This document shows, piece after piece, positions 3,001 through 49,280 of a DNA stretch of 64,000 bases. Source of the stretch: Deltaproteobacteria bacterium (GTDB lineage Bacteria > Desulfobacterota > Desulfobacteria > Desulfobacterales > SpSt-501); NCBI GenBank assembly GCA_016219005.1, contig JACRCN010000106.1, forward strand, positions 1 to 64,000, given 5' to 3'. Both the position numbers and the translations under genes were made by a program. Position 1 is the stretch's first letter, and every line of letters begins with the position of its first letter. The notes under the pieces were generated by a model. The model searched no databases, was not told the origin of the DNA, and was given only the letters and a program-made list of their open reading frames with translations.

Positions 3001-3007
3001 CGGATAG
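1..3007 (+). CDS. pfaA: PfaA-like polyunsaturated fatty acid/polyketide synthase, 3' part (ACP-ACP-KR-DH)
   Basis: The reading frame is open from base 2, so the 5' end (expected KS and acyltransferase domains) lies outside the window. Counting codons from base 2, two acyl carrier proteins come first, each with the Pfa-type motif LGIDSIKRVE; the phosphopantetheine serines are about residues 29 and 132. A ketoreductase follows, with NADPH motif GGARGIT near residue 423 and catalytic tyrosine in GQADYAMAN near residue 613. The C-terminus is a double-hotdog dehydratase of the PKS type, with HVIDGKPVVPM near 730 and LVLDSAFQ near 901. This order (ACP repeats, KR, DH) matches the known end of PfaA. 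These enzymes build polyenoyl chains in the cytosol by iterative condensation. A strong terminator follows at 3047. Family assignment is firm; the product is inferred from the pfaC-ole locus at 19.8-30.9 kb. Confidence 0.88.
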   Translation, partial: LAVVSELTGYPAEMLGLDMDIEADLGIDSIKRVEMLSSLEERSPGLPSIAPEDMGRLKTLAQIIAFLGDRQSAAKPWTGPEPPPAIAPPETRAGERPALHAGLLAVVSELTGYPAEMLGLDMDIEADLGIDSIKRVEILSALEERFPGLPPIAPEDMGRLKTLAQIIDLLSAPAPRAAVPTAEPESPTPMQRTAAGTCALETVQAVAAAAHLARRQAVTLAEAPPLAETPIVLPKGRKVFVTDDRTGLSQAITAELGAKGINTVLVSIDILNYKKDMPHASGLVIVPDPKSTAVAADLKHAFELAKAFAPDLMESARLEAAFFATVTRMDGAFGFSGQPISNPMQGALAGLAKTAAVEWPEVRCHALDIAPGWTDHRAVAQAVVGELMARGPVEIGLNPDARRTPTLVPQAYPDGAIDIAPGDLVVISGGARGITAACTLELARRARPTLVLLGRSPEPAAEPKWMQEIEEPSAIKKALLENEFAGMPAKPAEVERRLKLLIANREISRNLEALETAGAMVHYHAVDVRDAGQVKRIIDEARAAHGPVCALIHGAGVLEDRLIVDKSPEQFERVFDTKVKGFQALLAAVPEDELKVIVAFSSVTARIGNKGQADYAMANEALNKLAWVESLRRPGCRVVSVNWGPWECGMVTPTLKREFERQGVTLLPAADGALSLLREMARDTAATVEVVIGGTLNPATIEIVTEKSKPHLAMLFEREIDAESYPILKSHVIDGKPVVPMAMMAEWFGHGALHENPGLVLHGLEDIRILNGIRLSEQTKLIRLLAGKAQSREGGFEVELELRNGLREGKDIIHSRARAILAENPAQPPEFRLPEALSASDYPRSAAEIYEKVLFHGIRLHGLRTVRTCSAAGMVADVSGAPAPNQWMESPLRNSWLFDPLVLDSAFQMASLWCYEQRGCVSLPIHVASYRQFRPAFPAEGVTVVLEMRDATDKKMRGDFTFLDANSAVVARLAGYEAVMDPLLNRAFKPSGAPSRARDGG
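2..509 (+). repeat. Tandem direct repeat encoding two near-identical ACPs
   Basis: Bases 2-200 and 311-509 are almost the same at DNA level, with a 309-base (103-codon) period. Only a handful of substitutions are visible, for example aag/aaa in the SIKR codons and atg/atc two codons later. The spacer linking the copies is Pro/Ala-rich. The first copy touches the window edge, so further ACP copies may lie upstream, as is usual in PfaA (often four to nine ACPs). Confidence 0.9.
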
Positions 3008-3173: not shown

Positions 3174-3309
3174 CGGGCGCTATGCGGTGAAATTTATTAA
3201 GCGATTGCGCCATGACCGGCTGCCGAAAAATGCGAAGTTTCATCAAAGCCGTGCTCTGAACCCTGAAACCCGTCCCGGGAAAAACCTCCAATCGAAAGCG
3301 ATGGTTCCC

Positions 3310-4284
3310 ATGCTCACGACGCGCATCACCGAATTTTTCAGCGTCGAACGGCCCATCGTGCAAGGCGGGCTCATGTGGGTGGCCAAGGCCGGGCTTGTGT
3401 CGGCCGTATCCAACGCGGGCGGCATGGGCTTCATGACCGCCCTCACCTTCCCGGACGCTGAAAGCCTGCGGGCGGAAATCCGAACATGCCGGTCACTGAC
3501 CGACAAACCTTTCGGGGTCAACCTGACCTTTCTGCCAACGCTGCGGCCTCCGGACTACTCCGCCTACATCGATGTCTGCGCCGAGGACGGGATCCGGTTC
3601 ATCGAAACCGCCGGACGGAACCCGGAGAAATACCTGCCGCGGATCAAGTCCGCCGGCATCAAGGTCATCCACAAGTGCACCTCGGTCCGGCACGCGCTCA
3701 AGGCGCAAAGGATCGGCTGCGACGCCATCAGCATCGACGGGTTCGAGGCCGCCGGCCATCCCGGGGAGGATGACGTCACCACGCTGATCCTCGTGCCGCT
3801 TGTCCGCGATGCGGTCGACCTGCCCCTCATCGCCTCCGGCGGGTTTGCCGACGGCCGCGGACTGGTGGCCGCACTCGCGCTGGGTGCGGACGGGATGAAC
3901 ATGGGCACGCGCTTCGTAGCCACCCGCGAAGCGCCGGTGCACGAAAACGTGAAACAGGCGCTGATCCGCCACAGTGAAGTCGACACGCGCTTGATCATGC
4001 GCACCCTCCGGAACACCGAGCGCGTGCTCCACAGTCAGGCCGTCGACAAGGTCCTCGAGATCGAAAGCAGTGGCACTCCCAGCATCCAGGACCTCATTCC
4101 CTTTGTCTCAGGGCTGGTGGGCAAGGAGATGCTGGAGGACGGCGACATGAACAAGGGCACCCTGGCCGCCGGGCAATGCGTCGGGCTGATCCGCGATATC
4201 CCCACTTGCCGGGAACTGCTCGACCGGGTCATGGCCGAAGCCGAGGAGATCATCAAGACCCGCTTCGGCCGGATGCTTTCGTAA
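3310..4284 (+). CDS. Nitronate monooxygenase / FabK-type FMN flavoenzyme
   Basis: This 324-residue protein belongs to the NAD(P)H-dependent flavin oxidoreductase (2-nitropropane dioxygenase-like) TIM-barrel family. Signatures are the N-terminal ERPIVQGGLMWVA, the family block GFEAAGHPGEDDV and the phosphate-binding LIASGGFADG followed by ALGADGMNMGTRF. Upstream in-frame codons exist, but homologues normally start at MLTTRIT, so 3310 was chosen; an ATG at 3301 is possible and no strong ribosome site separates them. PfaD, the enoyl reductase of PUFA synthases, belongs to the same superfamily but is usually much longer (about 540 residues). Position behind pfaA suggests this short protein could act as a trans enoyl reductase; that is inference, and nitronate oxidation remains possible. 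Confidence 0.82.
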   Translation: MLTTRITEFFSVERPIVQGGLMWVAKAGLVSAVSNAGGMGFMTALTFPDAESLRAEIRTCRSLTDKPFGVNLTFLPTLRPPDYSAYIDVCAEDGIRFIETAGRNPEKYLPRIKSAGIKVIHKCTSVRHALKAQRIGCDAISIDGFEAAGHPGEDDVTTLILVPLVRDAVDLPLIASGGFADGRGLVAALALGADGMNMGTRFVATREAPVHENVKQALIRHSEVDTRLIMRTLRNTERVLHSQAVDKVLEIESSGTPSIQDLIPFVSGLVGKEMLEDGDMNKGTLAAGQCVGLIRDIPTCRELLDRVMAEAEEIIKTRFGRMLS

Positions 4285-4392
4285 AGAAGTTGAGTTCAAT
4301 CAGATCGGCTTGCATCGTTGTGAGAACGGCATCCAGCCGTGGTGATCCTGGCTGAACGCCACGCCCGTTGAAAATGGAGTGAGGGAATTACA

Positions 4393-4857
4393 TTGTCGAC
4401 GATTGCTTTCCAGGACCAGATCCCCGACAACCGCTGCTATGGCTGCGGCCCTTCCAATCACGACGGGCTGCGGATCAAAAGCTACTGGGAAGGGGACGAG
4501 TCGATATGCATCTACCAGCCCGAACGCCACCATTCGGCGGGCCCGCCGCAATTCCTGAACGGCGGCATCATTGCGACCCTCATCGATTGTCACAGCGTAT
4601 GCACCGCCATCGCTCACGCCTATAACCTCGAAAACCGCCCGATCGGATCCGATCCCCATATCTGGTGCGTCACGGCCAACCTGAACGTGTCCTACCTGCG
4701 CCCGACCCCGCTCGGCCTGCCGGTGGCGCTGCGCGCCCGAATCACCGACTCCGGCCCGAAAAAGACCCTGCTGCAGTGCTCGCTATATTCAAATTCGAAT
4801 GAGTGCGCCCGCGGTGAGATCGTGGCGGTGCGGGTGCCAAATACCTGGCGAAGCTAA
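4393..4857 (+). CDS. PaaI-like hotdog-fold thioesterase
   Basis: This 154-residue hotdog protein resembles the 4HBT/PaaI acyl-CoA thioesterases, with the helix motif FLNGGIIATLIDCH (compare HGG..A.L.D of the family) and a conserved CYGCGPSNHDGL start typical of this subgroup. The start is TTG at 4393, with GAGGGA six bases upstream; no in-frame ATG exists near the N-terminus. It follows the flavoenzyme gene by 108 bases on the same strand. Cytosolic hydrolysis of an acyl-CoA or acyl-ACP is the family role. In this setting it could release chains made by the neighbouring synthase, but no substrate can be read from the sequence. Confidence 0.75.
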   Translation: MSTIAFQDQIPDNRCYGCGPSNHDGLRIKSYWEGDESICIYQPERHHSAGPPQFLNGGIIATLIDCHSVCTAIAHAYNLENRPIGSDPHIWCVTANLNVSYLRPTPLGLPVALRARITDSGPKKTLLQCSLYSNSNECARGEIVAVRVPNTWRS

Positions 4858-19647: not shown

Positions 19648-19675
19648 ATTCTAAAGCGAAGCTGGCGCTTGTCAA
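19648..19675 (-). promoter_or_regulatory. Sigma-70-type promoter for the Mrp-family gene
   Basis: Read on the minus strand, TTGACA (19675-19670) and TAGAAT (19653-19648) are 16 bases apart. The leader to ATG 19592 would be about 50 bases. Confidence 0.65.
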
Positions 19676-19743
19676 GGATAATGGCGCCGACCCGCCGTTA
19701 TTTTTGCGACGCCGCCCATCGGCGGCCCGATCCGGCCTTTCCG

Positions 19744-19772
19744 TTGACGATCCATCGTATTTGCACTAATAA
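19744..19772 (+). promoter_or_regulatory. Sigma-70-type promoter for the pfaC-ole locus
   Basis: TTGACG (19744-19749) and TAATAA (19767-19772) have a 17-base spacer. Transcription would start near 19779, 35 bases before the upstream leader ORF. It lies about 70 bases from the divergent Mrp promoter. Confidence 0.6.
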
Positions 19773-19813
19773 TAAATATTTTGACCGCGCCCGAGGGCGA
19801 AAGGAGTCTTGCC

Positions 19814-19858
19814 ATGTTAAAAATCACACACACGGATTTCAAAGCCGTGCCCTGGTGA
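19814..19858 (+). CDS. 14-codon upstream ORF overlapping the pfaC start
   Basis: A perfect AAGGAG at 19801-19806 sits seven bases before ATG 19814. The frame encodes MLKITHTDFKAVPW and stops at a TGA whose A is the first base of the pfaC ATG (TGATG). The pfaC start itself has no convincing ribosome site. This is the usual geometry of translational coupling: ribosomes ending on the leader reinitiate on pfaC. The peptide has no run of a single amino acid that would suggest classic attenuation. Whether it is translated is unproven. Confidence 0.5.
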   Translation: MLKITHTDFKAVPW

Positions 19859-22800
19859 TGATGAGCATCAACGATGCCATTGCCATCGTCGGCATGTCCG
19901 GCCTTTTCCCCGGAGCACTCGATACGTCGACTCTGTGGGCCAACGTCTGCGCGAAGTTCGACGCCACTCGCGACGTTTCCCCCGATCGCTGGATCGCCGG
20001 CCCCGACGCCATGCTGCGCGCGGGCCATCAGCCCGACAAGACCTATTCCGCGCGCTGCTGCCTCTTGCCGGCCTTCCGCTTCGACCCGGATGGGCTGGAC
20101 CTGGACCCGGGCTTCGCCCGATCCCTCGACCCGCTTTACCACGTGCTGCTGCATGCCGGGCGGGAAGCCCTGCGAGGCGGCAGCCCCCCTAAGCTGAAGC
20201 GCGAGCGGACCGGTGTTGTGCTCGCCACCATTGTCCTGCCAACGGACGCCGCCACCGCGCTTACGCGCGATCTGCTGGGACCGGTCCTGGAAGCCGGCGT
20301 CCTGGGCGTTTCCCCCGCGCCCGTTCCGCCCTGGACCCGCGCCCGGTATTTCTCCAGCCGGGTCGCCAGCCTGCCGGCGGCCATCCTGGCCAAGGCGTTG
20401 CGGCTGGGCGGCGGCAGCTACACCCTGGATGCGGCCTGCGCCTCGTCGCTCTACGCGGTCAAGCTGGCCTGCGACGAGCTGCGCTCGGGCCGCGCCGACG
20501 CCATGCTGGCGGGCGGGGTGTCGCGGCCGGACTGCCTGTTCACCCAGGTGGGGTTCAGCCAGCTCAGGGCACTGTCCCCTTCCGGCCGCTGCGCGCCGTT
20601 TGACCGGACCGCCGACGGGCTGGTGGTGGGCGAAGGCGCGGGCATCCTCGTCCTGAAGCGCCTCGCAGATGCCATGGCCGACGGCGACGCCATCCGGGGG
20701 GTCATCCGCGGCATCGGCCTGTCCAACGATCTGCGCGGCAACCTCCTGGCCCCCGACAGCGAGGGCCAGCTGCGGGCCATGCGCGCGGCTTACACCGCCG
20801 CCGGCTGGTCGCCGCCGGATGTGGACCTCATCGAATGCCACGGCGCCGGCACCCCGGTGGGGGATGCGACCGAGCTCGCCAGCTTGGCTACACTCTGGGG
20901 TGAGAGCGGGTGGAGCCCGCGGCAATGCGCCCTCGGGTCGATCAAGTCCATGATCGGGCATCTGCTGACCGCGGCGGGCGCCGCCGGTGTCATCAAGACC
21001 CTGCTGGCCTTCCAGCATGGTCAACTGCCCCCGACGATCCATTTCCAGCAGGCCTCCTCCGGCAGCGCGCTGAACGACGGCCCGTTCAGGGTTCAGACCG
21101 AGGTCGAGCCATGGGAACGGCGCCGGCCAGGTGTTCCCCGGCGCGCCGCGGTCAGCGCCTTCGGCTTCGGCGGCATCAATGCCCACCTGCTGCTCGAGGA
21201 GTGGAACCCGGAACTCCACCCGGCCCCATCACACGTTCGGCCATCGTCACCGGACATAACGCCTTCATCTGAGGCCGCCGAGCTTCCAGCTTCGGGTTTC
21301 GAGCTGCCTTCATCCCGCATCCCTCATCTGCCCCATCCCGTGACCGTGGCCATCATCGGCATGTCGGCCTGTATCGGCCCGGCATCGTCGCTCGCCCTGT
21401 TCGAGCATGCCGTGCTCAACGGCGAATCGCTGATCGGCAGCCGCCCCCCGCGCCGCTGGAAGGGGTGCGACGGGGCGCTGCCCGGCCTTTCCGGCCTGGG
21501 CGGCTGTTATCTCGACGAAATCACCCTCGAAAGCGGCGCCTTCAACATCCCGCCTCTGGAAATCCCGGACGTCCTCCCGCAACATCTGCTGATGTTGAAG
21601 GTGGCCGCCGAGGCCATGGCAGATGCGAATCTGCCCCTGCGCCAGGATCGCCCGCGCATGGGGGCCGTAATCGGGATCGACTTCGATTTCGAGGCCACCG
21701 GCTTCCATCTGCGCTGGTTCCTGGAGCGGCGTTTCCCCGAATGGCGAAAGAGCCGGCCGGACCGACTCGACGACTCACAGGCCATGGAGTGGCTCACCGG
21801 CCTGCAGCAGAGCTGCAGCCCGCCCCTCACCGCCAGCCGCACTCTGGGCGCCCTGGGCAGCATGGTAGCCAGCCGCATCGCCCGCGCCTTCCGCTTCGGC
21901 GGGCCCTGCTTCGTGGTGTCCGCCGGCGAAGCCTCGGGCATGCGGGCGCTGGAGATCGGTGTACGCGCCCTCCAGGCCGGGGAACTCGATGCCGTCCTGG
22001 CGGGTGCCGTGGATCTCTGCGGCGAGCTGCGCCGCATCGCGGCCGAGCAGGCCGTTCGACCCTGCTCGGCGAACGGCACGGTGCAGCCCTTCGACCGCTC
22101 CGCCGAAGGTACGCTGCCGGGCGAGGGTGCGGTGGCCGTGGTGCTGAAACGGCTGGACCAGGCCCTGGCCGACGGCGACCGCGTTTACGCGGTGGTGCGG
22201 GGAATCGGCGCCGCCAGCGGCGGCGGCATCGATGCCGGCACACCCGCCATCGAGGCTTACGGGCGCGCGCTTGACCGCGCCGTGCAGGAGGCCGGGATCG
22301 ACCCGGCATCCATCGGTTTTTTCGAAGCCCACGGCAGCGGAAACCCGGCCGAGGACGGGCTGGAATCCCGGGCGTTGAACCGCTGGCGGGGCTCGAACCG
22401 CAGCACGTGGGCCCTGGGATCGGCCAAAGCCGTGCTCGGCCACACCGGGGCGTCGGCCGGGCTGGCTTCCGTCGTCAAAACGAGCCTGTGCCTGAGCCGT
22501 GGGGTCATCCCGGCTTTCCCCCGCGACAAGGGGCCGCCGCCGACAGGGGGCGAATCGGCCGGCTTTCAATTCCCCGCCCGCGCCCTGCCGTGGCCGCCGC
22601 CGGCGGACGCAGGCCCGCGCCACGCCGTGGCGGCGGCCATGACCTCCGACGGCAACTGCATGCACGTGGTGCTGGAGCGTTGCGATTCGCCGCCCGCAGG
22701 CGCCTCACGACCGCCACAGCCGGATGCGTTGGACCCCGACGCCCCGCCGGGCGTTGCCGTCCGAAACGCGATCCGGGTCCCGGTGGCGGGCAGCCCCATG

Positions 22801-25455
22801 GTCCTGCCGGGTGCGCCCGGGGCGGCCCGGCTCATCCGCCAACCCCAGCCGGCTGCGGGCGGCCGCGAAGTTACCGGGCTCCCCCCGCCGGCAAGCGTCG
22901 TGGAGAACCTGGCGTCCGTCTCCGAGGCGACTGCCAAAGCGCATGCCGCCTTCCTCGAGCTCTCCGGCGCCATGACCCGCCGCTACGCCGAAGCACTCAC
23001 GCTTCAGACCCGGTTGCTCGACCTGGCAGGTCCGCGCGACCCCGCTTCCGCGCGCGCCGTGGCCCCGGCCTTCACCCGCGCGCAATGTCTCGAATTCGCC
23101 CGCGGGTCTGCCGCCGCCGTGCTGGGGCCGGAGTTCGCCGAGGCAGATGCCTTTGCGGCCCGGGTGCGCCTGCCGGACGAGCCGCTGATGCTGGTGGACC
23201 GCATTCTGGAGATCCGGGGCACGCCGGGCGCGCTCGGCCCCGGCCGGGTGGTGACCGAGCACGACGTCCTGCCGGACGCCTGGTACCTCGACGGCGGCCG
23301 GGCGCCGGTCTGCATCGCCGTCGAGGCCGGCCAGGCCGACCTGTTCCTGTGCGCCTATCTCGGGATCGACCGGGTCGTGCGCGGCCGCCGCACCTACCGG
23401 TTGCTCGACGCCACGGTGGAGTTCCACCGCGAACTGCCGCGGCCCGGCGAGACCATCCGCTACGACATCGAGATCGAAAAGTTTCTGCGCCAGGGGGAAA
23501 CTTATCTCTTCCTCTTCCACTTCACGGGAACGATCGGAGGCGCCCCCCTCATCACCATGACCCATGGGTGCGCCGGCTTCTTCACCCGGGAGGAAGTCGA
23601 CCACTCGGGCGGAATCATTCTGACCGACGAGGACCGGCGGCCGCATCCCGGCAAGAAGCCGGCGGACTGGACGGATCCGGTGCCCCTGGCGCCGGGCGTC
23701 TATGACGATCAGGCCATGAACGCGCTACGCGCAGGCGACCTGGCGGGCTGCTTTGGGGAAGCCTTCGGCGGTGTCCGCCTGCCCGAGCCCCTGCGGCTTG
23801 CCGGCGGCCGCATGAAGCTGATCGACCGCGTCCTACAGTTCGACCCGGCCGGGGGCCGATACGGGCTCGGCCGGATCCGGGCCGAAGCCGACATCCGACC
23901 CGACGACTGGTTTCTAACCTGCCACTTCGTGGACGACATGGTCATGCCGGGCACCCTGATGCACGAGTGCTGCGCCCACACCCTGCGGGTGTTTGTGCAG
24001 CGCCTGGGCTGGGTCACCGACACGCCGGGCGCGCGCTACGAGCCGGTTCAGGGGCTGCGCGCCGCCCTCAAGTGCCGCGGGCCGGTGACCCCGCAGACCC
24101 GGCACGTGGTTTACGAGGTGGACATCAAGGAACTCGGTTACGGGCCGCAGCCTTTTGCCGTTGCCGACGCCAACATGATCGCCGACGGCCGCCACATCGT
24201 GCGCTTCAGCGACATGTCGCTCCAGCTCACCGGCGCAACCCGAACGGACATCGAGAATTTCTGGCGCAAGCAGCCTCCCCCCTCGACCGTTGCGCAGATC
24301 CCGACACGGCGCCCGGTCTCTTACGCGCGCGAGCACTTCCTGGAATTCGCCTGCGGCAAGCCCTCCCGCGCCTTCGGCGACCCATACCGGCCCTTTGACG
24401 CGGGCCGCTTCATCGCCCGGCTGCCGTCCCCGCCGTATCTCTTCATCGACCGCCTCACGGCCGTCGCGCCCGAGCCGTGGGTGGTCAAGCCGGGCGGGTG
24501 GGTCGAGACCGAGTACGATGTCCCGCCGGATGCCTGGTACATTCGCGCCGACCGCTGCCGGTCGGTCCCATACTGCGCCCTCCTGGAAGTCGCCCTGCAG
24601 CCCTGCGGGTGGCTGGCGGCCTACATGGGCTCGGCGCTTAAAAGCGCCAAGCCGCTGCACTTCCGCAACCTCGGCGGAAACGGGGTCCTGCACCGGGAGG
24701 TGTCGCCCGATAGCGGCACGCTGCGGGTGCGCACCCGCCTAAGCCACGTGTCCGAAGTGACAGACATGATCATCGAGCATTTCGACTTTGAAATCTCAAA
24801 CCGAGACGGCCTCATCTACGACGGCTCGACCTATTTCGGCTTTTTCACGCGCAGTGCCATGGAACGCCAGGAGGGCATCCGCGACGCGGCGCAAAAAGCC
24901 TTCACGCCAGCACCCGATCAGATGGCGCACGGCCGGGCGGCGGTGTTTGCGGACGAGGCGCCGCTCACCCCCGCGGACCCGGCCTGCAACCCGTCGCCGG
25001 CCCTCGCGCTTCCGGCCAGGGCACTGCGCATGATCGACCGGATCGATCTCTTCATCGCCGACGGCGGCCCCGAGGGACTGGGCTTTGTGCGCGGGTCCAA
25101 GGACATCGACCCGCAGGAGTGGTTCTTCAAGGCCCATTTTTACCAGGACCCCGTCTGCCCCGGTTCGCTGGGGATCGAGAGCTTCCTCCAGCTGCTCAAG
25201 TTCGCCGCCCGTGAACGCTGGCCGCAACTTATCGATTCACACCGTTTCGCACCGGCGACCGGGAAACCTCACCGCTGGACCTACCGCGGCCAGATCCTGC
25301 CGCAAAACCGGACGGTCACGGTCGAGGCGGTGGTCAGCCAAGTGACGGAATCGCCGCACCCGGCTCTGCATGCCAACGGCTGCCTCATGGTGGACGGGCT
25401 CACCATCTACCGCATGGAGGATTTCGGGATCGCGCTGGTGCCGGCATTAGGATGA
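19858..25455 (+). CDS. pfaC: PfaC-like PUFA synthase subunit (KS - chain-length factor - 2 x double-hotdog DH)
   Basis: This protein has 1865 residues. KS1 (about 5-425) has the full triad: Cys194 in DAACASSL, His in ECHGAGTPVGD and His in KSMIGHLLTAAG. KS2 (about 494-890) keeps the fold and both histidine motifs (FEAHGSGN, VLGHTGAS) but has Glu691 where the cysteine should be (SAGEASG), so it is a chain-length-factor-like partner. After a Pro/Ala linker, residues about 1065-1865 hold four FabA-like hotdogs in two pairs. The second of each pair has the catalytic histidine (WFLTCHFVDD, WFFKAHFYQD); the first lacks it and keeps an acidic residue. This is the PfaC architecture, which sets cis double bonds during chain growth. 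It starts at ATG 19858 or 19861, coupled to the leader ORF. An acyltransferase is not in the window. Confidence 0.88.
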   Translation: MMSINDAIAIVGMSGLFPGALDTSTLWANVCAKFDATRDVSPDRWIAGPDAMLRAGHQPDKTYSARCCLLPAFRFDPDGLDLDPGFARSLDPLYHVLLHAGREALRGGSPPKLKRERTGVVLATIVLPTDAATALTRDLLGPVLEAGVLGVSPAPVPPWTRARYFSSRVASLPAAILAKALRLGGGSYTLDAACASSLYAVKLACDELRSGRADAMLAGGVSRPDCLFTQVGFSQLRALSPSGRCAPFDRTADGLVVGEGAGILVLKRLADAMADGDAIRGVIRGIGLSNDLRGNLLAPDSEGQLRAMRAAYTAAGWSPPDVDLIECHGAGTPVGDATELASLATLWGESGWSPRQCALGSIKSMIGHLLTAAGAAGVIKTLLAFQHGQLPPTIHFQQASSGSALNDGPFRVQTEVEPWERRRPGVPRRAAVSAFGFGGINAHLLLEEWNPELHPAPSHVRPSSPDITPSSEAAELPASGFELPSSRIPHLPHPVTVAIIGMSACIGPASSLALFEHAVLNGESLIGSRPPRRWKGCDGALPGLSGLGGCYLDEITLESGAFNIPPLEIPDVLPQHLLMLKVAAEAMADANLPLRQDRPRMGAVIGIDFDFEATGFHLRWFLERRFPEWRKSRPDRLDDSQAMEWLTGLQQSCSPPLTASRTLGALGSMVASRIARAFRFGGPCFVVSAGEASGMRALEIGVRALQAGELDAVLAGAVDLCGELRRIAAEQAVRPCSANGTVQPFDRSAEGTLPGEGAVAVVLKRLDQALADGDRVYAVVRGIGAASGGGIDAGTPAIEAYGRALDRAVQEAGIDPASIGFFEAHGSGNPAEDGLESRALNRWRGSNRSTWALGSAKAVLGHTGASAGLASVVKTSLCLSRGVIPAFPRDKGPPPTGGESAGFQFPARALPWPPPADAGPRHAVAAAMTSDGNCMHVVLERCDSPPAGASRPPQPDALDPDAPPGVAVRNAIRVPVAGSPMVLPGAPGAARLIRQPQPAAGGREVTGLPPPASVVENLASVSEATAKAHAAFLELSGAMTRRYAEALTLQTRLLDLAGPRDPASARAVAPAFTRAQCLEFARGSAAAVLGPEFAEADAFAARVRLPDEPLMLVDRILEIRGTPGALGPGRVVTEHDVLPDAWYLDGGRAPVCIAVEAGQADLFLCAYLGIDRVVRGRRTYRLLDATVEFHRELPRPGETIRYDIEIEKFLRQGETYLFLFHFTGTIGGAPLITMTHGCAGFFTREEVDHSGGIILTDEDRRPHPGKKPADWTDPVPLAPGVYDDQAMNALRAGDLAGCFGEAFGGVRLPEPLRLAGGRMKLIDRVLQFDPAGGRYGLGRIRAEADIRPDDWFLTCHFVDDMVMPGTLMHECCAHTLRVFVQRLGWVTDTPGARYEPVQGLRAALKCRGPVTPQTRHVVYEVDIKELGYGPQPFAVADANMIADGRHIVRFSDMSLQLTGATRTDIENFWRKQPPPSTVAQIPTRRPVSYAREHFLEFACGKPSRAFGDPYRPFDAGRFIARLPSPPYLFIDRLTAVAPEPWVVKPGGWVETEYDVPPDAWYIRADRCRSVPYCALLEVALQPCGWLAAYMGSALKSAKPLHFRNLGGNGVLHREVSPDSGTLRVRTRLSHVSEVTDMIIEHFDFEISNRDGLIYDGSTYFGFFTRSAMERQEGIRDAAQKAFTPAPDQMAHGRAAVFADEAPLTPADPACNPSPALALPARALRMIDRIDLFIADGGPEGLGFVRGSKDIDPQEWFFKAHFYQDPVCPGSLGIESFLQLLKFAARERWPQLIDSHRFAPATGKPHRWTYRGQILPQNRTVTVEAVVSQVTESPHPALHANGCLMVDGLTIYRMEDFGIALVPALG

Positions 25456-25529
25456 ATCTTCGAGTCGGTTGAGTCTATTGGTCATTTGACATTAATTGGT
25501 CCGCCACCCACAAACCATCGGAACTGGCC

Positions 25530-26570
25530 ATGCAATATTCTCGCGTATCCATTGCCTCTTTCGGCTACGAACTGCCACCGAATGTCGTCACGTCCGATGA
25601 CCTGGAGCGGCAGCTCGAGCCGCTTTACGAAGTGCTCCGCATCCAGAAGGGACAGCTCGAGGCCATCACCGGCATCCGCGAGCGGCGCTACTGGGACCCC
25701 GATTTCGCGCTTCACGCGGGTGCGGCCCGCGCCGGCCGCAAGGCTGTGGAGGCCTCCGGGATTCCCCGCGAACGGATCGGGATGCTGATCTACGGGGCGG
25801 TTTGCCGCGAAAACCTCGAACCGGCGACCGCCTGCGCCGTTGCCGACGCGCTGGGCCTGCGGCCGGAATGCCAGGTCTACGACGTGTCCAACGCCTGCCT
25901 CGGTGTCCTGAACGGCATGGTGCAGGTTGCCAACGCCATCGAACTCGGCCAGGTGCAGGCGGGGCTGGTAGTGGCCTGCGAATCGGCACGCGAGATCGTA
26001 GGACTTACGATCGGGCGGCTGCTGCGGGAAAAGAGCATGGACGTTTTGCGCAAAACGATCGCCACCCTGACCGGCGGTTCCGGCGCGGTCGCCGTTCTTC
26101 TGACGGAAGCCTCGCTCGCGCCCACGGGGCATCGATTGATCGGCGGGGTCGCCCGCAGCGCACCCGAGCATCATCGCCTCTGCACCTGGGGCCCGGACAC
26201 CGGCATCCCCGGCGGCACCGGCCACATGGCGGAGACGGACTCGGCCAAGGTGCTTCAAAACGGCGTGGCCCTGGGGATCGAGACCTTCCGCGAGTTTCGC
26301 AAGGTTCTTGCGCTGGGCCCGCAAAAGCCAGACAAGATCATCTGCCACCAGGTGGGCGCCACCCACCAGCGCACCATCCTGGACGCTATCGGGATGCCGC
26401 CGGAGCGCGACTTCACCACCTTCCGCTACCTCGGCAACATCGGCACCGTCTCGCTTCCGATCACGGCCGCCATCGCCGAGGAGCGCGGCTTCCTCACCCC
26501 GGGCGACCTGGTGGGGCTGCTCGGAATCGGCAGCGGGCTGAACTGTCTCATGCTGGGAGTGAACTGGTAG
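25530..26570 (+). CDS. oleA: OleA, acyl-CoA Claisen-condensing thiolase-fold enzyme
   Basis: OleA joins two acyl-CoA chains head-to-head to a long 2-alkyl-3-ketoacid, the first step of olefin synthesis. This 346-residue protein has the thiolase-fold triad: Cys in SNACLGVLNGM near residue 127, His in CHQVGATHQRTI and Asn in YLGNIGTVSLP. It also has the OleA-specific glutamate in GAVCRENLEPATA. These set it apart from FabH. It starts 74 bases after pfaC on the same strand and is followed without a gap by oleB. Close packing with pfaC suggests that polyenoyl chains are the substrates. Confidence 0.88.
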   Translation: MQYSRVSIASFGYELPPNVVTSDDLERQLEPLYEVLRIQKGQLEAITGIRERRYWDPDFALHAGAARAGRKAVEASGIPRERIGMLIYGAVCRENLEPATACAVADALGLRPECQVYDVSNACLGVLNGMVQVANAIELGQVQAGLVVACESAREIVGLTIGRLLREKSMDVLRKTIATLTGGSGAVAVLLTEASLAPTGHRLIGGVARSAPEHHRLCTWGPDTGIPGGTGHMAETDSAKVLQNGVALGIETFREFRKVLALGPQKPDKIICHQVGATHQRTILDAIGMPPERDFTTFRYLGNIGTVSLPITAAIAEERGFLTPGDLVGLLGIGSGLNCLMLGVNW

Positions 26571-27482
26571 TTGAGAACAACCCCCGTCGACCTGGCCCCC
26601 TTCCGCCACATCTATCCTTTCACATCCCGCTATACGGACGTGAACGGCTTCAGCATGCACTACGTCGACGAGGGCCGGGGCGAGCCGGTGATCATGCTGC
26701 ACGGCAACCCCACCTGGTCGTTTTATTTTCGCGAGCTGATCCAGGGGCTCGCGGGCCGGTACCGGGCGGTGGCGCCGGACCACATCGGCTGCGGCCTTTC
26801 GGACACGCCGCGATCCTGCGCCTATGCCTATCGGCTCAAGAACCGGGTGGATGATCTCGAAACGCTGCTCGCGCATCTCGGCCTTACCCGGGACATCACC
26901 CTGGTGCTGCACGACTGGGGCGGAATGATCGGCGCGGCGTACGCGCTGAGAGACGTCCGCCGCATCGCCCGGCTGATCGTTCTGAACACGGCGGCATTCC
27001 TCAAACCCGGGGGCAAGCCCCTGCCGCTGGCGTTGCGGCTGATCCGTAGGGCGCCGCTGTTCGCCGCGCCGGCGGTGCTGGGCTTGAACCTGTTCGCCCG
27101 GGGTGCGGCCCGCACGGCCTCCGCCAGGGGCCTGAGCCCCGCGGCCCGCAAAGGCCTGCTTGCGCCCTACAACAGCTGGGACAACCGCCGGGCGACCCTG
27201 AAGTTCGTGCAGGACATTCCGCTGACCCCGCAAGACCCGAGCTTTGCTATCGCCCGGCAGGTGCATGACGGCCTGCACCGGCTGGCGGACAAACCGATGC
27301 TGATCTGCTGGGGCGAGCAGGATTTTGTCTTCGACACCGACTACCTCGCGGAGTGGCGACGGCGATTCCCGGCCGCCGAGGTCCACCGGTTCCCGGAGGC
27401 GGGCCACTATGTGCTTGAAGACGTTCCGGAGCCGGTCACTGTCCGGGTGCTGGATTTTCTGAACCGCCATCCCCTGCCCTGA
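26571..27482 (+). CDS. oleB: OleB, beta-lactone decarboxylase (haloalkane dehalogenase-like)
   Basis: OleB converts the beta-lactone made by OleC to a cis-olefin and CO2. This 303-residue alpha/beta hydrolase has the OleB/haloalkane dehalogenase signatures: HGNPTWSFYFR, an aspartate nucleophile in LVLHDWGGMIG near residue 109 and the histidine in PEAGHYVLED near residue 282. TTG at 26571 directly abuts the oleA stop codon, and no in-frame ATG exists before the conserved domain, so TTG is the likely start with coupled translation. In many bacteria oleB is fused to oleC; here it is separate. Confidence 0.85.
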   Translation: MRTTPVDLAPFRHIYPFTSRYTDVNGFSMHYVDEGRGEPVIMLHGNPTWSFYFRELIQGLAGRYRAVAPDHIGCGLSDTPRSCAYAYRLKNRVDDLETLLAHLGLTRDITLVLHDWGGMIGAAYALRDVRRIARLIVLNTAAFLKPGGKPLPLALRLIRRAPLFAAPAVLGLNLFARGAARTASARGLSPAARKGLLAPYNSWDNRRATLKFVQDIPLTPQDPSFAIARQVHDGLHRLADKPMLICWGEQDFVFDTDYLAEWRRRFPAAEVHRFPEAGHYVLEDVPEPVTVRVLDFLNRHPLP

Positions 27483-27619
27483 TTGAAAACCGGCAGCGTC
27501 TATAGTAGGTTACCCCAACCGGCCAGGAACGCCCCTTCCGACGCGGCCGCACCGCGCCGCGGGGCGCTCAGCTCGGACCGACACTTTTCAAGGGATCCCC
27601 CCTTGCGCAACCGGGTACG

Positions 27620-29347
27620 ATGATCGAGACGACCGATTCAACCGATGCTGACGTGAACGTGGCCTGCCACCTGGCGCGCATGGCGCAGGCCCACCCCTTC
27701 AAACGCGCCGTGGTCTGCCCGGCCGGCCGCGATGCCGCGGGCCGCGTCACCTATGCGCACCTAAACTTCCGGCAACTCGACCGGGAGTCCGACCAGATCG
27801 CCCACGGGCTGCTCAAAACCGGAATCGGCCCGGGCACGCGCACCATCCTAGTGGTGCGGCCGGGCCTCGAATTCTTCTCCCTCATCTTCGCCATCTTCAA
27901 GGTGGGCGCGGTACCGGTGGTCGTCGACCCCGGCATGGGGATCCGCCGCATGCTCGAATGCTTCCGCTCAACGCGGCCCCAGGCCCTCGTCGGTATCCCG
28001 CTGGCGCATGCGGTGCGCTCCGTTTTCCGCAAGTTCTTCAAGACCGTGCGCCACCGGGTCACCGTGGGCCGCCGCTGGTTCTGGGGCGGTCCGACGCTGA
28101 CGCAGCTGCGCGCCCGGGAGTGGACGCCCTTTACGGCCGCAAGGAGGCAGCGCAGCGACATGGCGGCCATCCTGTTCACCACCGGCAGCACCGGGCCGGC
28201 CAAAGGCGCCGTCTACACCCACGGCAACTTCGAGGCTCAGCTTCACCAGATCCGCACGCACCTCGACTTCAGTGCCGACGAGGTCGACCTTTCCACGTTT
28301 CCGCTCTTCGCCCTTTTCTACCCGGCCCTGGGGATCACCGCCGTGGTGCCCGACATGGACCCCACCCGGCCCGCGCAGGCTGACCCGAAACGCATCATCG
28401 AGGCGATCGAGAACCAGGGGGTCACTAACATGTTCGCCTCACCGGCGCTGCTCGAACGGCTCGGCGCCTACGGCCGCAAGCAGGGCACCCGGCTGCTCTC
28501 CCTGAAGCGGGTCATTTCCGCCGGCGCGCCGGTCCAGGCACGCACGGTCGAGCTTTTCTCCGAGCTGCTGGCGGACGGCGCGCAGATCCACACTCCTTAC
28601 GGCGCCACGGAGGCCGTGCCCATCGCCTCGATCCTCGGCCGCGAGACCCTGTCGGAGACCCGGCCGCTCACGGAGAAAGGCTTCGGCATCTGCGTCGGCC
28701 AGCCGATCGGCGGCACCGCCATCCGCATCATCGCCGTCAGTGACGAGCCGATCCGCAGGTGGTCGGATGACCTGCAGGTGGCCCAGGGAGAGATCGGCGA
28801 AATCACTGTCAAAGGCGGGCTTGTCAGCCCCCGGTATTATGAAAACCCGCTGGCCGATTCCCTGGCGAAAATACCCGAGAACGGCGAGGTGTGGCACCGC
28901 ATGGGGGACCTGGGCTGGATGGACAAGAAAGGCCGAATCTGGTTCTGCGGCCGCAAGAGCCAGCGGGTCATCACCGCCGACGGCACCCTCTACACGATCC
29001 CGTGTGAGAGCATTTTCAACACCCACCCCGCAGTCCACCGCAGCGCTCTGGTCGGCATCGGGCCCCGAACCAACCAAGTGCCGGTGATCTGCGTCGAGCT
29101 CAGGAAAGACCCGCCACGGATCGACCGCAAAGCGCTGCGCGCTGCGTTGCTGAAGCTGGCCCAGGCGCACGAGATCACGCAGGGGATCCGGATCATTCTC
29201 TTCCACGATGCCTTCCCGGTGGACATCCGCCATAACGCGAAGATCTTCCGGGAGCAATTGGCCGGCTGGGTGCAAAAGCAGATCAAGCCCAAGGGCATCC
29301 GACGGCCCCGCAAAACGGACGCACACCATGGCCGCGACGTCCCATGA
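27620..29347 (+). CDS. oleC: OleC, beta-lactone synthetase (AMP-dependent synthetase family)
   Basis: OleC activates the 3-hydroxy acid from OleD with ATP and closes a beta-lactone ring. This 575-residue ANL-family enzyme has the P-loop motif FTTGSTGPAKGAVYTHGNF near residue 188, HTPYGATEAVP near 327 and the hinge-region GDLGWMDKKGRIWFCGRKS near 430. Length fits OleC. It starts at ATG 27620 after a 137-base gap from oleB and overlaps oleD by 20 bases. Order and identity of neighbours make OleC more likely than a generic acyl-CoA ligase. Confidence 0.87.
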   Translation: MIETTDSTDADVNVACHLARMAQAHPFKRAVVCPAGRDAAGRVTYAHLNFRQLDRESDQIAHGLLKTGIGPGTRTILVVRPGLEFFSLIFAIFKVGAVPVVVDPGMGIRRMLECFRSTRPQALVGIPLAHAVRSVFRKFFKTVRHRVTVGRRWFWGGPTLTQLRAREWTPFTAARRQRSDMAAILFTTGSTGPAKGAVYTHGNFEAQLHQIRTHLDFSADEVDLSTFPLFALFYPALGITAVVPDMDPTRPAQADPKRIIEAIENQGVTNMFASPALLERLGAYGRKQGTRLLSLKRVISAGAPVQARTVELFSELLADGAQIHTPYGATEAVPIASILGRETLSETRPLTEKGFGICVGQPIGGTAIRIIAVSDEPIRRWSDDLQVAQGEIGEITVKGGLVSPRYYENPLADSLAKIPENGEVWHRMGDLGWMDKKGRIWFCGRKSQRVITADGTLYTIPCESIFNTHPAVHRSALVGIGPRTNQVPVICVELRKDPPRIDRKALRAALLKLAQAHEITQGIRIILFHDAFPVDIRHNAKIFREQLAGWVQKQIKPKGIRRPRKTDAHHGRDVP

Positions 29348-30353
29348 GCCGGAATGCGTGCTCGTCACCGGTGGCGGCGGTTTCCTGGGCACGGCCATCG
29401 TGCGCATCCTCGCCGCCCGCGGGGACCGGGTGCGCAGTTTCTCCCGCCGCCCGCACCCGGCGTTGACCCGGCTCGCGGTGGAGCAGGCCCAGGGCGACAT
29501 TGCCGACGCGAGCGCCGTCGAGCAGGCCTGCCGCGGCGCGGACGTCGTCTACCACACGGCCGCCAGACCGCCGCCTTGGGGGCCCTACCGCGATTACCAC
29601 CGCACCAATGTCACGGGCACCGCCAACGTTATCGATGCCTGCCGCAGCTGCGGAGCGAAGCGCCTCATCCACACCAGCACGCCGAGCGTGGTATTGGACG
29701 GCAATGACATCGCCGGCGTGGACGAATCCGTGCCCTATCCGCCCCGTTACACGGACCCTTACTCGCAGACCAAAGCGCTGGCCGAACGGATGGTAATCCA
29801 GGTCGCAACAGAGTTCATGCAAACGATTGCTCTGCGGCCCCATGAAATCTGGGGGCCGGAGGACCCGCACTTCGTGGCGCGGATCATCACCCGTGCCAGG
29901 CATCTCCGGCGCATCGGCGACGGCCGGAACCTCGTGGACACGACCTACATCGACAACGCCGCCACGGCCCATGTACTTGCGGCCGACCGGCTCAAGCAGG
30001 ACCCCGGCCTCTCGGGACGGGTCTATTTCATCAGCCAGGGCGAACCCGTGCCGGCCTGGGACATGATCGACGCCATCCTCAGGGCCGCCGGGCTCGGGCC
30101 CGTGAAGGGCTCCGTCCCCCACGGGGTGGCTTGGGCGATGGGGTTTTTCTTTGAAAAAATCTACAGCAGGCTGCACCTGCCGGGAGAGCCGCCGATGACA
30201 CGCTTCATCGCCGATGCCCTGGCCCGGACCCACTGGTTCGACATCAGCGCAGCCCGCCGGGACCTTGGCTACACGCCCACCGTTTCGACCGCGGAGGGCC
30301 TTGAACGGCTTGCGGCCTGGCTGCATGCGGAAGGAAAGAAGGAGGCACCATGA
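29328..30353 (+). CDS. oleD: OleD, NAD(P)H-dependent 2-alkyl-3-ketoacid reductase
   Basis: OleD reduces the OleA product to a 2-alkyl-3-hydroxy acid. This 341-residue extended short-chain dehydrogenase (3-beta-HSD/epimerase family) has the nucleotide motif VTGGGGFLGTAI at the N-terminus, a serine in HTSTPSVV and the catalytic DPYSQTKAL (YxxxK) near residue 147. It begins inside the last 20 bases of oleC and its TGA overlaps the ATG of the next gene, so oleC, oleD and the PocR gene are translationally linked. Confidence 0.88.
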   Translation: MAATSHEPECVLVTGGGGFLGTAIVRILAARGDRVRSFSRRPHPALTRLAVEQAQGDIADASAVEQACRGADVVYHTAARPPPWGPYRDYHRTNVTGTANVIDACRSCGAKRLIHTSTPSVVLDGNDIAGVDESVPYPPRYTDPYSQTKALAERMVIQVATEFMQTIALRPHEIWGPEDPHFVARIITRARHLRRIGDGRNLVDTTYIDNAATAHVLAADRLKQDPGLSGRVYFISQGEPVPAWDMIDAILRAAGLGPVKGSVPHGVAWAMGFFFEKIYSRLHLPGEPPMTRFIADALARTHWFDISAARRDLGYTPTVSTAEGLERLAAWLHAEGKKEAP

Positions 30354-30865
30354 AACTGACAGACATAGCTCCGATAGAGCGCTGGATGGAGCTGGAAAAC
30401 GACATCAACGCCCGCTCGGGCATGGACGCCAACGTGTTCGACACCCGGGGCTACCGCATCTCGCCCCAGAAACACTGGGCCAACCGGCTCTGCCCGGCCA
30501 TCAAAAGCACGGACAAGGGCCAAAGCTTCATCTGCGCCCCTGCCCACATGAACATCTCTGCCCAGGCCATGCGCAGCCGCGCAACGATGATCGAGGAGTG
30601 CGATGCGGGCATGATCAAACTGGTGGTGCCGATTTTTATGGGCGCCGAGTTCATCGGCGCCGTCGGCGCCTGCGGCATGAAGTTCGAGGATGGCGACATC
30701 GACTCTTTTCTGGTCAACAAGATGACCGGCATCGCCGAGGACACCGTCGAGAGCCTTTCCGCCACGGTCCCCGCCATCGCCCGTGGCAAAGCCGAAGAAC
30801 TAAGCCGCTACATTGCGGAAGCGGTGGAAAAGATCATCGCCGAGTTCAGGCGGACATCCTCCTGA
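30350..30865 (+). CDS. Stand-alone PocR-type ligand-sensing domain protein
   Basis: This 171-residue protein matches the PocR sensory domain: RWMELENDINARSGMDANVFD at its start (a region shared by the family), then CPAIKST, CAPAHMNI, IEECDAGMIKLVVPI and GAVGACG. PocR domains are PAS-like and normally feed a DNA-binding, kinase or cyclase domain; here there is none. ATG 30350 overlaps the oleD stop as ATGA, a strong sign of one operon. The cysteines (CPAIK, CAPAH, EECDAG) could bind a metal or cluster. It may sense a metabolite tied to olefin or membrane state and signal to the phosphatase encoded next; both are inference. Confidence 0.75.
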   Translation: MKLTDIAPIERWMELENDINARSGMDANVFDTRGYRISPQKHWANRLCPAIKSTDKGQSFICAPAHMNISAQAMRSRATMIEECDAGMIKLVVPIFMGAEFIGAVGACGMKFEDGDIDSFLVNKMTGIAEDTVESLSATVPAIARGKAEELSRYIAEAVEKIIAEFRRTSS

Positions 30866-45954: not shown

Positions 45955-48351
45955 ATGGCTAACGGCACCCCTGCCTTTAGAAATATTCGATGTGCTATGA
46001 GTGACAGGATCGCTCGGTTGCGTGAGAATCTGCTGCTGGCTCGCCCAGAGGTCTTTGCGGAAAGAGCGATACTTCTGACCGAAGCCTACCGTGACACTAT
46101 CGATGACCTACCTGAACTGCAACGGGCCAAGGCGTTGGCCCATGTACTTCAAAATACCGACATCCGCATCCGACCCGGAGAATTGATCGTCGGGTCCAAG
46201 GTTCCTCTGCCCAAAGGTTCCCCGGTGTATCCGGAATTCAATATACAATGGCTGGAGCAGGAACTTGAGACTCTTGCCGAGCGGAAAGAAACTCCGTTCC
46301 ATGTATCCGAAGTGACAAAAAAGGAATTAGCCGAAAAGGTTATACCCTATTGGAAAGGTAAAACGGTTTATGACTATATTCTAAAAGAGGCCCCGCACAA
46401 AGCCCTGGCAGCAGCCGGCGAAGGTCTGTTTTTCCATTACTATATCGATCGCAGCATCGGACATATTTCCGTCAATTATGAAAAAGTCCTGCAGTCGGGC
46501 CTTCTGGGGCTTAAGGCCCGGATCAAGGAACAGCAGGATCTGTTGTCCCGGACTCAGAAGGATTATCCCCGAAAAAGTGCATTCTACGATGGACTGTTGA
46601 TCGTCGCCGATGCCGCTATCGAGTTTTCACACCGGTACGCGGACCTGGCGTACAAACTAGCTGCCTCATGCGATAATCCGGTCCGGCGCGCGGAAATGGA
46701 GCATATTGCAGCAATCTGCCGACGGGTACCGGAATACCCTGCTGAAACCTTTCATGAAGCGCTCCAGTCGTTCTGGTTTATTCACCTTATCCTGAACCTC
46801 GAGAGCAATTCCTATGCGATTTCTCCCGGACGCTTCTGTCAGTATATCTTCCCCTATTATGAAAACGATGAGAAATCAGGGGTACTTGACGCATCCGGTG
46901 CTCAGGAGCTGATCAACTGCCTGTGGATTAAGTTCAATGAGATGACGGTCGTCAAGGCCGGAGCCACTGCCAAGGCCAGCAACACCTATGTGGACTTTCA
47001 AAATCTGAACATCGGGGGGATCACGGCTGACGGGCGTGATGGAACCAACGCGGTTTCCTACTTCTGCCTTAACGCCCTTGAGGCCTTGAAATTGCCGCAG
47101 CCGCAAGTCTCCTGCCTGATCAGCTCTAAAACCGAAAAATCCTTTTTGCTGCGCGCCGCTGAGGTAATCAGGGGTGGAACAGGCATGCCGGCCATGTTTA
47201 ACGATGATGTAAAAGTCGTCAGCCTGATGGCTGGCGGAAAGTCCCTGTCCGATGCACGCAGGGGAGGGGTCAACGGATGCGTCGAGATTAACGCCCAGGG
47301 TTGCGACAACATGGCATCGACCGGATATGTGAATCTGGCCAAGTGTCTGGAACTAGCAATGAATGATGGTGTCAGCATGATCAGTGGCAGGCGCCTTGGG
47401 CCCCGAACCGGCCGAGTTGAAACCTTTTCTTCGATCGACCAGGTTATGGATGCGTTTTCGAAACAATTGAAGGCCGCAGTCGCCTTGAAGGTATCATACG
47501 ATAAAGCAGCCAGAAGAGCCTTCGCACGGTATTGTCCGGTCATTTTCACCTCATTGGTCATGGATGACTGTATCGCCAAGGGGCAGGATTTCCACCAGGG
47601 TGGTGCACGATACAACGCTCCGATGCTCTGCGGTGTCGGTCTGGGAACCCTTGCCGATTCCTTAGCGGCCATTAATGAAAACTGCTTTGTGAGAAGAAAT
47701 TACACCTTGGCACAGGTACGGGAAGCCCTGCTCGACAATTTTGCCTCGCATCCGCTCATGCGAAGACAGCTGAACAGAAAAAGTCCCAAGTTCGGCAATA
47801 ACGACGATCGCGCCGATCACTGGGCCGCGCTCGCCGTGACGACGTTTTGCGATATCCTGGATACCCATGTGAGCGAGTACGGGGAGTCTTACCGGGCAAA
47901 CATGATTCCGACAACGACCCATATCCCCCTGGGTCATGATACCGCCGCGACCGCTGACGGGCGCTTTGCCGGTGCACCATTGTCCGAAGGTGTTTCACCG
48001 GTCCAAGGCAAGGATATCAAAGGCCCGACAGGGGTGATTCAATCACTGGCGAAACTGGATCACGGCCGCACGGCAGGAACCTTGCTGAACATGAAATTCA
48101 CGCCATCGATTCTGGATAGCGAAGAAAAGCTGGAAAAATTCTCAGAACTGGTCCGCACCTATTTCGCTCTAGGAGGATATCACATGCAGTTCAATGTGGT
48201 TTCCCGCCAGACCCTGATCGATGCTCAACAGAATCCTGAGGCCTATCGCTCCCTGATCATCCGGGTGGCCGGATACAGTGATTATTTCAATTCATTAAGC
48301 AAGAGCGTACAGGATGAAATAATCACGCGTACCACCTTCGGAGAAGCTTGA
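45955..48351 (+). CDS. Glycyl radical enzyme of uncertain substrate (PFL-like, CxE type)
   Basis: This 798-residue protein is a full-length glycyl radical enzyme. The thiyl-radical cysteine is Cys442 in GVNGCVEINAQG with Glu444 two residues on. The radical glycine is Gly773 in IRVAGYSDYFNSLS near the C-terminus. The CxE arrangement places it with eliminases/decarboxylases (diol, choline, hydroxyproline, isethionate types) and excludes pyruvate formate-lyase, which has two adjacent cysteines. Those relatives usually read GCVEP; here Ile replaces Pro. Other blocks (GGITADGRDGTNAVSYFCL, GRFAGAPLSEGVSPVQGKD) are intact. AGGAGA precedes ATG 45955. The activase gene overlaps by one base. It is oxygen-sensitive by family and cytosolic. 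Substrate unknown. Confidence 0.88.
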   Translation: MANGTPAFRNIRCAMSDRIARLRENLLLARPEVFAERAILLTEAYRDTIDDLPELQRAKALAHVLQNTDIRIRPGELIVGSKVPLPKGSPVYPEFNIQWLEQELETLAERKETPFHVSEVTKKELAEKVIPYWKGKTVYDYILKEAPHKALAAAGEGLFFHYYIDRSIGHISVNYEKVLQSGLLGLKARIKEQQDLLSRTQKDYPRKSAFYDGLLIVADAAIEFSHRYADLAYKLAASCDNPVRRAEMEHIAAICRRVPEYPAETFHEALQSFWFIHLILNLESNSYAISPGRFCQYIFPYYENDEKSGVLDASGAQELINCLWIKFNEMTVVKAGATAKASNTYVDFQNLNIGGITADGRDGTNAVSYFCLNALEALKLPQPQVSCLISSKTEKSFLLRAAEVIRGGTGMPAMFNDDVKVVSLMAGGKSLSDARRGGVNGCVEINAQGCDNMASTGYVNLAKCLELAMNDGVSMISGRRLGPRTGRVETFSSIDQVMDAFSKQLKAAVALKVSYDKAARRAFARYCPVIFTSLVMDDCIAKGQDFHQGGARYNAPMLCGVGLGTLADSLAAINENCFVRRNYTLAQVREALLDNFASHPLMRRQLNRKSPKFGNNDDRADHWAALAVTTFCDILDTHVSEYGESYRANMIPTTTHIPLGHDTAATADGRFAGAPLSEGVSPVQGKDIKGPTGVIQSLAKLDHGRTAGTLLNMKFTPSILDSEEKLEKFSELVRTYFALGGYHMQFNVVSRQTLIDAQQNPEAYRSLIIRVAGYSDYFNSLSKSVQDEIITRTTFGEA

Positions 48352-49280
48352 TGAAACGTCTGAGCAATGGAGTGATTTTCGATATAGAGCATTACGCCAT
48401 TCATGACGGCCCCGGCATTCGAACGACAGTTTTTATGAAGGGGTGCCCATTAAAATGTCGCTGGTGTGCCAACCCGGAGTCCCAAAATACCCAGCCTGAA
48501 ATCCTATACAACCGGAACCTGTGCACACTGTGCGGGGAATGCGTCCAGGCATGCCCGACAGGAAGCATCAGCATTGTGGCTGGACAGCGTCTTCTTGACC
48601 GAAGAAGTTGCGATGCCTGCAGCCGCTGCGTTGACGTATGCCAGCAGGATGCGCTTGAGATTTGTGGGTATTCCCTTGATCTCCAATCTGCCTGGAACAG
48701 GATCAGGGATGATCTCATCTTCTGGGATCGATCCGGTGGCGGCGTTACACTGTCCGGCGGCGAGCCCCTGATGCAACCCGAGTTTACCCTCAAATTTTTG
48801 GATTTCTGCCGGCAAAACAAGGTCCATACGGTCGTCGAAACCTGTGGACAGGTGCCTGAAGAGCACCTCAGATCGATTCTCCCTGTCGTGGATATCGTTC
48901 TCTTTGATTACAAGACGGCAAGCCCGGACAAGCATAAACAGCACACGGGCGTTTCCAATGAACAGATCACCAGAAACCTGATAGCCCTATTGAAAGGCCC
49001 CAGCGAAGTTCTTGTGCGGATGCCTCTGGTTCCGGGGATTAATGACAGCATGGAAGACTTAATGGCCGTGGGGGATCTCCTAAGCCGGACAAGGCCTGGC
49101 GCCAAATTTGAGCTGTTGCCCTATCACAGGCTTGGGGAAGGGAAGTATGAGAAGCTCGGGAGAAATTACATGCTGAAGGAGGTCACCCCTCCGACGCTTG
49201 ATCTATTGGAGGCAGCCATGGATGTTCTATCCGGCTATGGTCTGAGTCTGATCACTCCACGTATAGGAGACCAAAATTGA
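48351..49280 (+). CDS. Glycyl radical enzyme activating enzyme (radical SAM)
   Basis: This 309-residue protein has the radical SAM triad CPLKCRWC after GIRTTVFMKG, two ferredoxin-like 4Fe-4S sites (CTLCGECVQACP and CDACSRCVDVCQ) and the SAM-binding VTLSGGEPLMQPEF. It installs the glycyl radical on the partner encoded immediately upstream. Its ATG uses the A of the enzyme's TGA (TGATG), so production is coupled. A dedicated insertion with two extra clusters is normal for activases of non-PFL glycyl radical enzymes. Confidence 0.93.
   Translation: MKRLSNGVIFDIEHYAIHDGPGIRTTVFMKGCPLKCRWCANPESQNTQPEILYNRNLCTLCGECVQACPTGSISIVAGQRLLDRRSCDACSRCVDVCQQDALEICGYSLDLQSAWNRIRDDLIFWDRSGGGVTLSGGEPLMQPEFTLKFLDFCRQNKVHTVVETCGQVPEEHLRSILPVVDIVLFDYKTASPDKHKQHTGVSNEQITRNLIALLKGPSEVLVRMPLVPGINDSMEDLMAVGDLLSRTRPGAKFELLPYHRLGEGKYEKLGRNYMLKEVTPPTLDLLEAAMDVLSGYGLSLITPRIGDQN

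Follow-up and report, generated by a model that had tools for sequence, protein, structure and literature searches.

A pfaC–oleABCD locus without the PfaB acyltransferase in an uncultured Desulfobacterales bacterium: a probable pathway to a long polyunsaturated hydrocarbon

We analysed a 64,000-nucleotide stretch of DNA (the window), which comprises positions 1–64000 of contig C79 in a metagenome-assembled genome (MAG) of an uncultured Desulfobacterales bacterium (5.24 Mb in 106 contigs, estimated to be 98.5% complete and 4.67% contaminated). The window carries pfaC, which encodes a subunit of a Pfa-type polyunsaturated fatty acid (PUFA) synthase, directly upstream of oleA, oleB, oleC and oleD, which span 25530–30353 on the same strand. 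Family models, structure alignments and motifs bear out an earlier note on this DNA, which had described a PfaC followed by a complete oleABCD on one strand. The gene content points to a long polyunsaturated hydrocarbon as the probable product, made by a synthase that has lost its PfaB-type acyltransferase (AT). The locus contains the following genes.

19858–25455, + strand: pfaC, with ketosynthase (KS), chain-length factor (CLF) and two FabA-type dehydratase (DH) domains, without an AT domain (Pfam, structure alignment, motifs)
25530–26570, + strand: oleA, head-to-head condensing thiolase (NCBIfam model, structure alignment, conserved residues)
26571–27482, + strand: oleB, beta-lactone decarboxylase, a haloalkane dehalogenase-like alpha/beta hydrolase (best model, motifs)
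27620–29347, + strand: oleC, beta-lactone synthetase, AMP-binding (NCBIfam, motif)
29328–30353, + strand: oleD, 2-alkyl-3-oxoalkanoate reductase of the short-chain dehydrogenase/reductase family (best model, motifs)
30350–30865, + strand: gene with a PocR sensory domain (PF10114, 9e-15), overlapping the oleD stop by 4 bp

The pfaC open reading frame spans 19669–25455 and is free of stop codons; its likely start is at 19855/19858, with the KS domain beginning about five codons further on. Pfam detects two KS domains and FabA-like domains, and the KS and CLF align to the solved KS–CLF didomain 6riw. The ketosynthase carries the motifs DAACASS and ECHGAGT with the active Cys and His, and in the second KS-like domain, the CLF, the Cys is replaced (VSAGEAS). 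The two DH active-site motifs are CHFVDDMVMPG and AHFYQDPVCPG, and the motif His is conserved across 36 aligned relatives, with one exception allowed. The protein is thus predicted to combine an active KS, a CLF and two FabA-type DH domains.

OleA scores 467 bits against NF006720 (cutoff 285), aligns from end to end with the OleA structures 3fk5 and 3row, and conserves all four expected catalytic residues (Cys123, Glu97, His273 and Asn303). The other three enzymes are assigned to the same predicted operon by best models and motifs. OleB has the nucleophile motif LHDWGG and the histidine motif GHYVLE. OleC exceeds the NF006754 cutoff, reaches 609–631 bits with the olefin beta-lactone synthetase models, which is under their own cutoffs, and carries FTTGSTGPAKG. 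The best model for OleD is the OleD 2-alkyl-3-oxoalkanoate reductase (386 bits, under cutoff), and its motifs are GGGGFLG and YSQTK. The tight packing that had been noticed earlier is real: the gaps are 74 bp (pfaC–oleA), 0 bp (oleA–oleB) and 137 bp (oleB–oleC), and an in-frame ATG at 29328 gives oleD a 20-bp overlap with oleC. The earlier note had drawn the locus as 19858–30865; the start and the genes hold, but the end does not, because 30350–30865 is the PocR-domain gene. That gene accompanies ole in many of the Desulfobacterales loci compared, where it adjoins oleD, and we tentatively take its product for a probable sensor or regulator of this operon; the literature on the pathway that we consulted contains no description of it beside ole. 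A promoter scan placed one promoter-like site ahead of pfaC and a terminator scan of the locus gave predictions at chance level; neither was used as evidence.

To place the locus in its phylum, OleA and the dehydratase part of PfaC were sought in 395 genomes sampled evenly from it. OleA is present in 44 and the PfaC part in 31, and the two occur together in 26 genomes from 12 families, where 3.5 would be expected (Fisher p = 4e-24, not corrected for relatedness). In 15 of these 26 genomes, representing nine families, pfaC and oleA share a strand and pfaC ends no more than about 330 bp before oleA begins. All seven sampled genomes of the window's own family have OleA, with pfaC directly upstream of oleA in the loci with enough upstream DNA. 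The same order occurs in named Desulfosarcina and Desulfatitalea records and in one Elusimicrobium, and OleB recurs in the loci of relatives. The cultivable Desulfatitalea alkaliphila M08but (L080) has oleABCD beside a pfaC that bears an AT. In an OleA tree, 37 of 37 pfaC-linked OleAs fall inside one clade of 50 rows (SH-aLRT, a Shimodaira–Hasegawa-like branch support, 98), which also holds ten unlinked OleAs; no linked OleA lies elsewhere in the tree. Pairing of pfaC with ole is therefore a standard arrangement in this phylum, well beyond chance. OleA, OleB and OleC from two Phycisphaerae MAGs (L088 and L090) are nested in the Desulfobacterota pfa-linked OleA clade, which suggests horizontal transfer or misbinning.

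This neighbourhood comparison, which the earlier note had proposed, finds the same order repeatedly but removes its novelty. Published work calls ole genes "often linked" to clusters of the pfa type and reports that Geobacter bemidjiensis makes the hydrocarbon C31:9 (PMC3098273); it also places pfa and ole "in tandem" in strict anaerobes such as the same species (PMC4882568). Because adjacency is widespread and already published, it does not by itself support a dedicated assembly line, as the earlier note had suggested; in Photobacterium profundum SS9 the pfa and ole operons are adjacent, yet eicosapentaenoic acid (EPA) is made and hydrocarbon was undetected (PMC6463001). A stronger argument for a line making only hydrocarbon, which that note did not contain, is the loss of the PfaB AT.

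In most linked relatives PfaC has about 2300 residues, with a PfaB-type AT fused between the CLF and DH domains and its catalytic Ser kept in 32 of 32 cases (GYSLGE or a close form). On that count we rejected the notion that linkage to ole leaves this AT idle. PfaC proteins of the window's genus have about 1720–1870 residues and no AT domain; the pfaBC fusion of the Type I clusters of Shulse and Allen is absent, with no AT between CLF and DH. To look for a relocated pfaB, we used PF00698, TIGR02816 and a profile built from 16 fused ATs; searches of the whole genome of the window returned only FabD and the malonyl acyltransferase (MAT) domain of PfaA, and those of other members of the genus the same, plus further polyketide synthase (PKS)-type ATs in one (G005). 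None of the genomes searched yielded a relocated pfaB. For these assemblies that negative carries weight, because the same profile recovers the fused AT in control relatives at E values of 1e-103 to 1e-202. By the same profile searches a PfaB AT is also absent from the Desulfaltia group (G078, G376 and G357) and from the genomes of three further loci (L076, L082 and L089). A PfaC tree built with the AT excluded requires a minimum of four changes, two of them forced by strongly supported branches, in a quick search with several weak forks; the AT thus appears to have been lost in about four lineages. In the members of the window's genus whose loci were read, the AT-less pfaC is still an open frame, and pfaC–ole synteny is retained after the loss. 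Whereas the adjacency was already known, the recurrent loss of PfaB in ole-associated synthases is the unexpected part, and we found no description of it in the open literature searched.

The remaining synthase components and the genes that accompany them are divided between the start of the window and a second contig, C72.

2–3007, + strand: C-terminal part of pfaA, with two acyl carrier protein (ACP) domains, a ketoreductase (KR) and a PKS-type DH (Pfam, TIGR02813)
C72, 9269–12765, running off the contig end: N-terminal part of pfaA, KS–MAT–first ACP (TIGR02813)
C72, 7350–9143, directly upstream of pfaA: pfaD enoyl reductase of 598 codons, with PF21607 (FabD helical insert, FabD_helical_ins) and an NMO domain
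3187–4284, + strand: FabK-like FMN enoyl-ACP reductase (TIGR03151, 266 bits, under cutoff)
4372–4857, + strand: hotdog-fold thioesterase (PF03061; PDB 2prx, E 4e-34)

The two halves of pfaA match TIGR02813 at 1e-297 and 1e-155; neither reaches the full-length cutoff, which is to be expected of a partial protein. Both contig ends lie inside near-identical ACP copies, and bases 1–99 of the window recur exactly in C72; most simply, the split would be an assembly break within the tandem ACP repeats. The join of C72 to C79 is supported by a relative (G006) in which pfaD, pfaA, pfaC, oleABCD and the PocR gene follow one another on a single contig, with the pfaD homologue likewise upstream of pfaA. 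A PfaA of the KS–MAT–tandem ACP–KR(–DH) type can thus be reconstructed across the two contigs, and the C72 reductase is assigned as PfaD by its domain content. The gene at 3187–4284, directly after pfaA and shared with another genome (G003), was rejected as PfaD, its nearest NCBIfam family being FabK and the PfaD-type gene lying on C72. The thioesterase may be an acyl release or editing enzyme; it has no counterpart in the relatives' loci examined, and we do not call it PfaT/Orf6, given that non-conservation and that its sole strong solved relative, 2prx, carries no more specific name than thioesterase superfamily protein. About 16 kb of unrelated genes separate the pfaA C terminus from pfaC in the window, and two phosphopantetheinyl transferase-type genes, candidates for PfaE, lie elsewhere in the genome.

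One of the closest known systems is the Pfa–OleABCD pathway of Shewanella, which produces C31:9. Both have PfaA, a KS–CLF–DH–DH PfaC, PfaD and OleA–D, and in both the double bonds would come from the Pfa dehydratases and not from oxygen-dependent desaturases; the window differs in having pfaC directly upstream of oleA, a PocR-domain gene after oleD and no PfaB found in its genome. It shares Desulfobacterota-type anaerobic hosts and the tandem placement of pfa and ole with the Type I/K 'secondary lipid' clusters (Shulse and Allen 2011; G. bemidjiensis and others), but departs from them in its AT-less PfaC and in the genes interposed between pfaA and pfaC. The pfa–pfaT–ole region of P. profundum SS9 also has pfa adjoining ole, but belongs to a gammaproteobacterium with a separate pfaB.

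We propose that the locus encodes an oxygen-independent Pfa–Ole pathway to a long polyunsaturated hydrocarbon, with OleA probably the main exit for the chains, and put the probability of this reading at about 0.7. PfaA, with its tandem ACPs, would act with PfaC and PfaD to assemble an ACP-bound polyenoyl chain, in which the double-bond positions would be set by the FabA-type dehydratases of PfaC. Two such chains would then be drawn from ACP and condensed head to head by OleA. The resulting beta-keto acid would be carried by OleD, OleC and OleB through a hydroxy acid and a beta-lactone to the olefin. By likeness to C31:9, the chain length and number of double bonds of the product may be similar. 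In a published model, OleA intercepts the growing chain on the PfaA ACPs at the 16:4 stage, before it can become EPA and with no acyl-CoA involved (PMC6463001); PfaB is active towards long-chain acyl groups, and deletion of pfaB abolishes docosahexaenoic acid (DHA) in the Moritella marina system (PMC12895367). On these two grounds a PfaB-less synthase would be expected to hand its chains to OleA. Since the assembled genome contains no PfaB AT at all, EPA- or DHA-type acids are probably not among the products of this synthase, and we infer that its chains flow mainly to OleA and not into membrane PUFA. The polyunsaturated hydrocarbon named in the earlier note is upheld as the likeliest product.

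Several observations weigh against this proposal. Linkage does not prove a product, as SS9 illustrates; the thioesterase gene after pfaA offers another possible chain exit; pfaA is split over contigs of a MAG with some estimated contamination; the pathway is read from genes; and an AT-less synthase may be inactive. The full constraint on the AT Ser beside ole indicates that the AT is normally useful even in ole-linked systems. Moreover, the AT-less Desulfaltia group has ole elsewhere in the genome, and in one of its MAGs ole was not found.

The alternative that survives best, which we nevertheless regard as unlikely, is that the main Pfa product is a free or membrane PUFA, which the hotdog thioesterase or some other enzyme releases, while OleABCD uses ordinary fatty-acid synthase chains and proximity is only regulatory. 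The position of the thioesterase just after pfaA would fit this, as would the saturated or branched substrates of OleA families elsewhere (PMC6463001) and the 18 of 44 OleA-bearing genomes that lack PfaC. However, it sits poorly with the strong co-occurrence and recurrent direct adjacency of OleA and PfaC, with the confinement of every linked OleA to one clade, with the non-conservation of the thioesterase and with the absence of the PfaB that the Moritella system requires for DHA. Less probable still is that the AT-less synthase is decaying and the locus a degenerate remnant with little or no product. The lost AT and the genes interposed between pfaA and pfaC could be read in that way, but PfaC is uninterrupted, its KS, CLF and both DH domains and all Ole catalytic motifs are intact, the AT-less frame stays open in the genus members whose loci were read, oleA is kept throughout the family sample and synteny outlasts the AT. 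It is very improbable that the pathway ends in an oxygenated lipid, such as a beta-lactone or ketone, instead of the olefin: OleA/C/D homologues are described as also making beta-lactones (PMC7064751), and OleC and OleD score under the Xanthomonas/Shewanella equivalog cutoffs, but an OleB with intact motifs directly follows oleA and recurs in relatives, and the operon has no extra tailoring genes.

With regard to the host, the earlier note's Desulfobacterota anaerobe was right as to phylum, the OleA of the window is nearest to OleAs from Desulfobacterales MAGs, and the genome encodes a dissimilatory sulfite reductase (dsrA). The organism may or may not be a strict anaerobe: beside dsrA, the genome contains a fragment of heme-copper oxidase subunit I (COX1) at a contig start (G000:C43:129-833, L142), either genuine or contamination. 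The second half of the window (32001–64000) has a G+C content of 0.45–0.59, against 0.60–0.71 in the first half, and a weaker codon-position bias; it may be acquired DNA. Within it, 45955–55207 encodes a glycyl-radical enzyme and activase, an Amidohydro_3 protein, a TRAP transporter and a 2-hydroxyacid dehydrogenase, possibly an uncharacterised anaerobic catabolic cluster. The glycyl-radical enzyme scores under all specific NCBIfam equivalog cutoffs, the nearest being trans-4-hydroxyproline dehydratase (775 versus 1100 bits).

The question behind this is whether cells make polyunsaturated hydrocarbon for its own sake or only as a by-product of PUFA synthesis. We tentatively suggest that several Desulfobacterales lineages, including the window's genus, independently dropped the PfaB AT and so arrived at a hydrocarbon-only line with OleA as the chain releaser, a plausible but unproven step that the recurrence of the loss makes directly testable. 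Natural PfaB-less systems that keep ole amount to an experiment already run by evolution: if they make hydrocarbon without PUFA, the role of PfaB would be confined to the fatty-acid branch and OleA would unload the ACPs itself. Should this be true, sediments inhabited by sulfate reducers would be a possible source of long polyenes.

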